From Druceiella hillmani (Eukaryota; Arthropoda; Insecta; Lepidoptera; Hepialidae): 64,000 nucleotides of DNA. The DNA lies in the NCBI GenBank assembly GCA_039881145.1, contig JAYKKI010000038.1, positions 4,568,501 through 4,632,500 of the forward strand, in the 5' to 3' direction. Made by a program: the position numbers and the translations under genes. Positions within the stretch are counted from its first letter, which is position 1. The number at the start of each line of letters is the position of its first letter. The notes below the pieces were generated by a model that was not told the origin of the DNA, did no database searches, and was given only the letters and a program-made list of their open reading frames with translations. Shown here one piece after another: positions 24,836 to 61,505 of this stretch.

Positions 24836-24929
24836 ATGGTGCTAAAAATTTGCCTTTTAATTGGCGTACTTCTAGTTTTGCGGGCAGATGGAAGCTTTTG
24901 GTTATTTAAACCCATTTTCAATTCAACAG
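24836..24929 (+). CDS. Exon 1: signal peptide
   Basis: This 94-nt coding exon starts at an ATG in the context CACAATGG and ends CAG|gtgagc in phase 1. It encodes [19 protein letters not shown] followed by [12 protein letters not shown]. There is a Lys near the N-terminus, a hydrophobic core of about 11 residues, and an A-D-G cleavage site near residue 19. The start was chosen because the signal peptide begins directly at it and the phase matches every downstream micro-exon. A non-coding 5' exon further upstream cannot be excluded. Confidence 0.8.

Positions 24930-61505: not shown

Follow-up and report, generated by a model that had tools for sequence, protein, structure and literature searches.

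A candidate secreted gene in which 35 in-frame micro-exons separate a signal-peptide-like exon from a TIL exon

How do 35 exons of 9 to 21 nt, all in the same phase, come to lie between a signal-peptide-like exon and an exon for a TIL domain, and do they form a single gene? We analyzed this locus within a window of 64,000 nucleotides, which is the whole stretch of DNA that we studied; positions refer to the window, and features are on the plus strand unless noted. When we rebuilt the gene from the window, the 38 exons gave one frame of 333 residues and a stop codon, with no internal stops, and all 37 junctions were in phase 1. These results match exactly the coordinates, exon sizes, common phase, and 333-residue frame of a preliminary description of the locus. 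Together with the complete TIL domain, they support its central proposal, which was a single-frame micro-exon gene that runs from a signal peptide to a TIL domain. From the sequence, the micro-exons are probably spliced together with the signal-peptide-like and TIL exons to encode one secreted inhibitor with a glycine-rich, basic tail whose length would vary. The best reading of the locus seems to be a secreted gene of the micro-exon type, which arose by growth within one intron of a gene for a signal peptide and a TIL domain.

The first exon (24836..24929) has an ATG with A at -3 and G at +4, followed by a hydrophobic, signal-peptide-like stretch and a phase-1 donor (gtgagc). After an intron of 8,636 nt (24930..33565), the micro-exons begin. 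Thirty-three of the 35 are 21 nt long, and the other two, of 18 and 9 nt, deviate from this length by 3 and 12 nt. All 35 have phases 1-1, and they account for 720 of the 1,002 coding nucleotides. In the rebuilt gene, micro-exons 1 to 3 encode GDPMRGL (33566..33586), EELMKGV (34282..34302), and GGYDRGL (34974..34994). Micro-exons 4 to 7 encode GWHDKGF (36186..36206), GGLSKGI (36782..36802), IELLEGI (37372..37392), and GGNKTGV (38036..38056). They are followed by the 18-nt micro-exon 8, GWHKGI (39393..39410), and then by micro-exons 9 to 12: GEFVKGF (39931..39951), EDLLGGI (40635..40655), GGHKKGV (41562..41582), and RELVKGL (41951..41971). Micro-exons 13 to 15 encode GVHDKGF (42692..42712), GGLAKGI (42996..43016), and EKLLGGI (43699..43719), and the 9-nt micro-exon 16 encodes just GGH (44454..44462). 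Next are GGFVKGI (45188..45208), GGHKTGL (45905..45925), and GGFLKGI (46712..46732), which are micro-exons 17 to 19. From micro-exon 20 to micro-exon 32, two kinds of heptads alternate. The even-numbered ones all encode GGHKRGL (47438..47458, 48896..48916, 50354..50374, 51812..51832, 53270..53290, 54728..54748, and 56171..56191). Of the odd-numbered ones, micro-exons 21, 25, and 29 encode GGLVKGI (48410..48430, 51326..51346, and 54242..54262), and micro-exons 23, 27, and 31 encode GGLVKEI (49868..49888, 52784..52804, and 55700..55720). The last three are GRHKRGS (57146..57166), GGHKRSG (58818..58838), and GGHKRRG (59394..59414). They are followed by the TIL exon (60694..60864; 171 nt, symmetrical phases 1-1) and by a last coding exon, which encodes PPLLE and the stop codon (61489..61505). 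By pattern matching, a possible poly(A) signal, ATTAAA, lies at 61609..61614; it is one of five within the next 800 nt.

Could these exons arise by chance? The donor is GTAAGT in 33 of the 35 micro-exons (it is gtaagg in micro-exon 4 and gtatgt in micro-exon 35). The acceptor ends in TTTCAG in 33 of the 35, and the complete TTTTGTTTCAG is found in 20. Thus, the preliminary statement that almost all of the micro-exons share both signals is correct for the donors but overstated for the full acceptor. We then searched both strands with a generic splice pattern (CAG after a pyrimidine tract, 6 to 63 nt, and GTRAGT), which was picked after a first look at the locus and was not fitted to the exons. 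It had 29 matches on the plus strand, all of them among the 35 model exons and 28 of them 21 nt long, as compared to 1 match on the minus strand and to a mean of 0.63 matches (maximum, 3) in 30 Markov shuffles. A further pattern, itself derived from the locus, pointed the same way. Along with the neutral simulation described below, these matches rule out a chance origin of the micro-exons. The preliminary description had reached the same conclusion by arguing that chance could not place 37 junctions in one phase. Its conclusion stands, but the exons and the introns are copies of one another, and so the 37 junctions cannot be counted as independent evidence. Self-comparison with blastn rules out treating the junctions as separate events, and selection within the array is a better argument against chance than the number of junctions.

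The TIL domain at the end of the model is complete, as judged by comparison to the family profile and to solved structures. The match to Pfam PF01826 has an E value of 5e-12 and covers the full profile (1 to 55 of 55); the TIL piece scores 46.2 bits and the whole protein 41, against a cutoff of 24.5. In an alignment with the solved TIL inhibitors 8j3q, 1ccv, 8hwu, and 1ata, all ten cysteines are in register. The CSKDC of the reactive-site loop aligns with CTMQC in 1ccv, with CTREC in 8j3q and 1ata, and with CIAVC in 8hwu, so that the lysine is opposite methionine (1ccv), arginine (1ata and 8j3q), or alanine (8hwu). We take this loop to be the one that carries P1, and we predict trypsin-like specificity from the lysine at the aligned P1 position. 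The chymotrypsin inhibitor 1ccv and the Ascaris trypsin inhibitor 1ata share the cysteine pattern and the reactive-site loop with this domain, but they are bare inhibitors, with chains of 56 and 62 residues and no repeat tail.

What would such a tail do? The preliminary description had each micro-exon encode the heptad GGxxKG[ILVF], which was too strong: the strict motif is present in 8 of the 35, and a looser one, GGxx[KRT][GE][ILVF], is present in 21. The last residue is I, L, V, or F in 31 micro-exons, all but the last three and the 9-nt one. The repeat region has 240 amino acids, with a pI of 10.85 and a net charge of +30, of which the first half contributes +4. The cysteines of the predicted protein are confined to exon 1 and the TIL exon.

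One alternative is a secreted structural protein of the matrix, silk, egg-coat, or cuticle type, in which the TIL domain shields the protein or the material from proteases. The repeat region is 36% glycine and has 31 lysines, and hydrophobic-lysine heptads (GGLVKGI) alternate with basic ones (GGHKRGL), as might be expected for such a material. The gene is also built much like tropoelastin, with many small symmetrical phase-1 exons, a glycine-rich product, and regularly spaced lysines. Vertebrate tropoelastin and the collagens, with their 54-bp exons, are proteins that grew by the duplication of small symmetrical exons together with introns, but their exon sizes and sequences are different and they have no TIL domain. 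However, the tail seems short for a polymer, its second half has a net charge of +26, and with one tyrosine and no cysteines it offers little for cross-linking. We therefore consider a structural role to be unlikely, although it is the best of the alternatives.

Another alternative is a peptide precursor: cleavage at KR in the HKRGL heptads would release cationic peptides with an antimicrobial or signalling role, and the TIL domain would be a by-product or a regulator. The repeat region contains ten KR sites, seven of which are spaced at exactly 14 residues, and antimicrobial precursors with multiple products are known, such as Baramicin (excerpts of PMC9246212). However, KR is found only from micro-exon 20 onward. 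Because it is absent from micro-exons 1 to 19, a precursor cannot explain the first growth of the array. The glycine content also seems to speak against a stable amphipathic helix. A peptide precursor is quite unlikely.

To return to the micro-exon gene, how did the array form? The exons of the preliminary description were confirmed, but it had missed the anatomy of the array, in which the introns were copied as well. Among the self-blastn matches listed, the introns between micro-exons are mostly 60 to 75% identical over hundreds of bases, and in the young part of the array they are 97 to 98% alike. We built a profile of the monomer from 26 live copies and searched with nhmmer. The 42 matches lie between 33398 and 59555, none is on the minus strand, and together they cover every one of the 35 micro-exons. 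Given homologous introns and profile matches around every micro-exon, the locus is a tandem array of monomers of about 0.7 kb, each with half an intron, a micro-exon, and half an intron. The array extends over 33031..59575, but the ends are approximate: some of the self-matches begin at 32.87 kb.

Three monomers have no exon. Overall, we detected 38 monomers, of which 35 have an intact exon, 3 are exon-less, and none have a frame-shifted or stop-bearing exon, although strongly decayed monomers could be missed because the profile was built from live ones. The first dead monomer (D1; 38591..38827) aligns to its best-scoring live copy, which has its exon at 41951, with one 85-nt gap from -8 that takes out the exon and both splice sites. 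The second (D2; 57715..58047) aligns to its best-scoring live copy, at 58818, with one 128-nt gap, also from -8. The third (D3; 58168..58351) aligns to the copy at 59394 with gaps of 48 and 64 nt. The 64-nt gap spans -28 to +36 and removes the exon; the upstream half of this monomer is weakly recognised (E = 0.0017). All three lack the exon and both splice sites. As a control, four live monomers that were realigned in the same way keep all 21 bases of the exon. Dead-copy bases (1 to 20 of them) do fall on the exon in 5 of 16 pairwise comparisons, but these always score below the best one. Judging from these alignments, the three monomers lost their exons by deletion.

Two other readings were set aside. 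D2 has an ungapped-looking match to the monomer of the exon at 42692, which would argue against a deletion; however, upon realignment, the copy at 58818 scores best and places the 128-nt gap over the exon, whereas the comparisons to 42692 and to 57146 have lower scores and place other bases on the exon. The match at 56814-56896 looked like a fourth, degenerate monomer, but it belongs to the monomer of the exon at 57146, whose upstream half was cut off from the rest by a SINE-like insertion. As to the live copies, those in 47 to 57 kb are nearly identical, and the assembly could have miscounted them.

The selection tests used 26 divergent monomers, with 9 near-identical copies of the 35 set aside. 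The paired splice hexamers rank first for conservation among 321 offsets, with a value of 0.975, as compared to a mean of 0.548 and a maximum of 0.905 for the 266 offsets that are more than 27 nt away. In 1,000 neutral simulations run over the tree of the introns (length 7.85), an average of 5.5 of the 26 tips retained AG..GT, with a maximum of 15, and all 26 tips were stop-free in 2 runs; in the actual monomers, both counts are 26 of 26, but this contrast is inflated, as the presence of an exon was the basis on which these monomers were selected. Gene conversion, which is outside the simulation model, could also homogenise the splice sites. The frame test alone is not decisive, because windows outside the exon reach similar values: across 329 such windows, up to 26 of 26 monomers are in frame and up to 25 of 26 are both in frame and open (the mean for open is 14.6). 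The amino acids are less constrained. Pooled over pairs, pN/pS lies between about 0.7 and 1.1 for the three bins of greater divergence, which contain 267 of the 276 pairs; within the heptad classes defined below, the values are about 0.72 for H, 0.70 for L, and 0.53 for E. Since splice sites and frame are retained while amino-acid constraint is weak, the sequences support selection that is strong on splicing and frame but loose on the residues of the heptads.

Separately, the monomers are conserved from -95 to -20 upstream of the micro-exons, which is farther than the pyrimidine tract, and conservation drops faster on the downstream side. The conserved stretch is possibly a splicing enhancer or the branch-point region.

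These results bear on whether the array is a non-coding satellite within a large intron of an ordinary signal-peptide/TIL gene, with fortuitous or relic micro-exons that are skipped. A satellite would account for the copying of introns and exons together and for the weak amino-acid constraint. However, it would not lead us to expect that the splice hexamers rank first, that AG..GT persists in every monomer when no simulation exceeded 15, or that the deletions removed exons entirely while no broken exon was detected. Nor would it explain the reading frame: the joined micro-exons contain no stops in the frame that is used, as compared to 14 and 18 in the other two. A satellite is very unlikely.

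It is also doubtful, to a slightly greater degree, that exon 1 or the TIL exon is part of a neighboring gene and that the array has other terminal exons. Exon 1 does lie 8.6 kb upstream of the array, with minus-strand Helitron-like ORFs (weak, sub-threshold Pfam matches) in between. However, when we scanned from 12 to 33.56 kb for an ATG that is followed by a hydrophobic stretch and then by a phase-1 GTRAG donor, exon 1 was the sole candidate. At the other end, the TIL acceptor, the TIL donor, and the stop exon share the same phase.

How does the favored model, a secreted micro-exon gene with a TIL domain, compare to known genes? The preliminary description had held that its architecture matches neither the micro-exon genes (MEGs) of schistosomes nor the bicycle genes of aphids. 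This is not borne out, as the excerpts of PMC4015677 and PMC9168663 contain precedents. In Schistosoma mansoni, a 27-bp exon is repeated in tandem 0 to 20 times in the SmPoMucs, exons of the same length are alternatively spliced in the 10-3/MEG-4 gene, and SmVAL6 has micro-exons beside domain exons; other organisms are also known to have micro-exon genes (excerpts of PMC4015677). SmVAL6 combines a domain and a micro-exon array in the same way, but it is a VAL (venom-allergen-like) gene rather than a TIL gene (PMC4015677, in part). The SmPoMuc and 10-3/MEG-4 exons in those excerpts are 27 bp, whereas here there are 35 micro-exons, 21 nt as a rule, each with one glycine-rich basic heptad, along with the TIL domain. 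More generally, MEGs have a signal peptide and small symmetrical exons (excerpts of PMC10526429, PMC4350168, and PMC3961193). The locus shares with them symmetrical exons whose lengths are multiples of three and that account for the bulk of the coding sequence (up to 75% in MEGs, 72% here), and long introns (excerpts of PMC10526429, PMC4350168, and PMC4015677); the hydrophobic stretch after its ATG may correspond to their signal peptide. According to the same excerpts, most exons of MEGs have 15 bp, and the families of these genes are apparently restricted to platyhelminths. By comparison of architecture, we regard the locus as analogous to MEGs rather than as a member.

Bicycle genes are closer in some respects. 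They are secreted genes of insects with many micro-exons, and almost all of their internal exons begin at codon position 2, as do all 35 here; the megacycle gene of M. sacchari has 118 exons as well as repeated units (excerpts of PMC9168663). In those excerpts, bicycle proteins have a CYC motif. The repeat region here has no cysteine and hence no CYC motif, a TIL domain is present, and the exons were copied together with their introns. One could also read the locus as a divergent member of the bicycle or megacycle genes, from an aphid, phylloxeran, or scale insect. Such a gene would fit the codon-position-2 starts, the signal-peptide-like start, the repeats, and the 30% GC, but given the TIL domain, one-heptad-per-exon coding that the excerpts of PMC9168663 do not mention, and the missing CYC motif, we reject it as the least probable reading of all, if not absolutely, since PMC9168663 (in the same excerpts) reports homologues with no clear CYC motif.

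Thus, with precedents in SmPoMuc, 10-3/MEG-4, SmVAL6, and the bicycle genes (in the excerpts cited), the micro-exon design is a variant and is not unprecedented. What appears to be novel is the combination of a TIL domain with exons that encode one heptad each and with expansion by complete intron-exon units; the literature that we searched contained no insect TIL micro-exon gene among the matches listed. For the joined 333-residue protein, there was no homologue, and no match to a MEG family, at E ≤ 1 among 7,995 candidates scored, which is a weak negative because the search was word-based and the query is of low complexity. For the TIL peptide, no candidate in the database shared three words with it, so none were scored. 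As a control, the same database yielded 545 relatives of a mariner ORF in the window, with several named insect entries among the 120 listed; this shows that insect proteins are in the database, not that they are fully covered. Searches of Rfam and for TIL domains in viral contigs led nowhere, and neither did a scan for bacterial promoters and terminators, which is ill-suited to this genome.

If the gene is transcribed as modeled, then the schistosome-style array with one short peptide per exon would have arisen independently here, joined to a protease inhibitor. It may also represent a class of secreted proteins that is likely missed because of limits on exon size in gene finders. Live and dead monomers with homologous introns adjoin, so that the locus offers a natural experiment on the way in which the spliceosome finds exons of 21 nt, and in one case 9 nt, within repetitive introns. 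It is informative as well about how repeat proteins grow by intron-exon units.

The history of the array can be partly read from its monomers. We assigned heptads to three classes: H (GGHKRGL-like), L (GGLVKGI-like), and E (EKLLGGI-like). On a tree built from the introns only, heptad class changes 5 times, as compared to a mean of 11.0 and a minimum of 7 when the classes are shuffled (none of 2,000 shuffles reached 5). By this measure, heptad class follows the phylogeny of the introns. The 5' part of the array has three full H-L-E triads (micro-exons 4 to 6, 8 to 10, and 13 to 15), and the 3' part has L-H pairs. From self-blastn and pairwise differences, the young part (47328..56713) contains six two-exon units of 1,458 nt, and four of these, at 48958-54789, form two nearly identical four-exon blocks of 2,916 nt. 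The four inner units differ by 1 substitution when they are two apart and by 12 to 13 when they are neighbors, and therefore the 2,916-nt block was copied very recently; pairs that involve the two outer units have 15 to 42 differences.

We propose that the ancestor had a signal-peptide exon and a TIL exon split by a phase-1 intron, and that one 21-nt exon within this intron was amplified with its flanks, giving rise to the H, L, and E lineages and later to the basic L-H pairs. The TIL exon is itself symmetrical (1-1), as would fit an array that expanded within a phase-1 intron of this signal-peptide/TIL ancestor. Every unit is symmetrical; therefore, skipping any subset of them, or gaining or losing units, keeps the TIL domain in frame. 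The length of the tail would thus vary by in-frame exon skipping and by unequal crossing-over. The TIL domain would inhibit a trypsin-like protease by means of the lysine at the aligned P1 position, and the tail, whose first half is nearly neutral and whose second half is strongly basic, would attach the inhibitor to an anionic surface or matrix by multivalent binding. Variation of the tail at an interface with a host or microbe, as in MEGs, may be the likeliest reason for the design, but it is the weakest step of the proposal. More tentatively still, the locus might represent an independently evolved class of micro-exon genes in arthropods, in which a phase-1 intron of a signal-peptide/TIL gene acts as an exon factory: each duplication of about 0.7 kb would add one symmetrical heptad, and the tail would be set both by exon copy number, which would probably vary between individuals in the 2,916-nt repeat, and by combinatorial in-frame skipping. 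We give this broader idea somewhat less than an even chance.

The insertions that we located in the gene, namely the Helitron-like ORFs, a reverse-transcriptase fragment, and a SINE-like insert, all lie in introns. The Helitron-like ORFs run from 27833 to 32316 on the minus strand of intron 1. Their Pfam matches, all sub-threshold, include Helitron_like_N (28933-29625) and a helicase model (27836-28417), and a 131-nt tandem repeat (27613-27907) lies at one end of the run. Reverse-transcriptase fragments (RVT_1) are found at 22264-22680 and, in the intron before micro-exon 4, at 35613-36026. The insertion at approximately 56899-57105, with a B-box-like GGTTTGATTCC and an A/T-rich tail TAAATAAATAAATA, is likely a tRNA-derived SINE, judging from these motifs; no tRNA gene was found, and the window contains no second copy of its core. 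It lies in the intron upstream of micro-exon 33 (57146), about 40 nt from the exon, and the acceptor survives.

Upstream of the gene, there are broken fragments of piggyBac-type transposases at 2250-3133 and 11255-11773. Matches to Pfam DDE_Tnp_1_7 are above the cutoff at 2864-3133 and 11255-11773 and below it at 2250-2624. A 199-bp unit at 1133-1531, upstream of these remnants, is tandemly duplicated (2 copies, 99% match). The window also contains a mariner transposase fragment on the minus strand (3576-4133). Among the matches listed, its ORF shares 79 to 81% identity with several proteins of Melitaea cinxia, a butterfly, and 68% with one of the bee Anthophora plagiata; mariners move between species.
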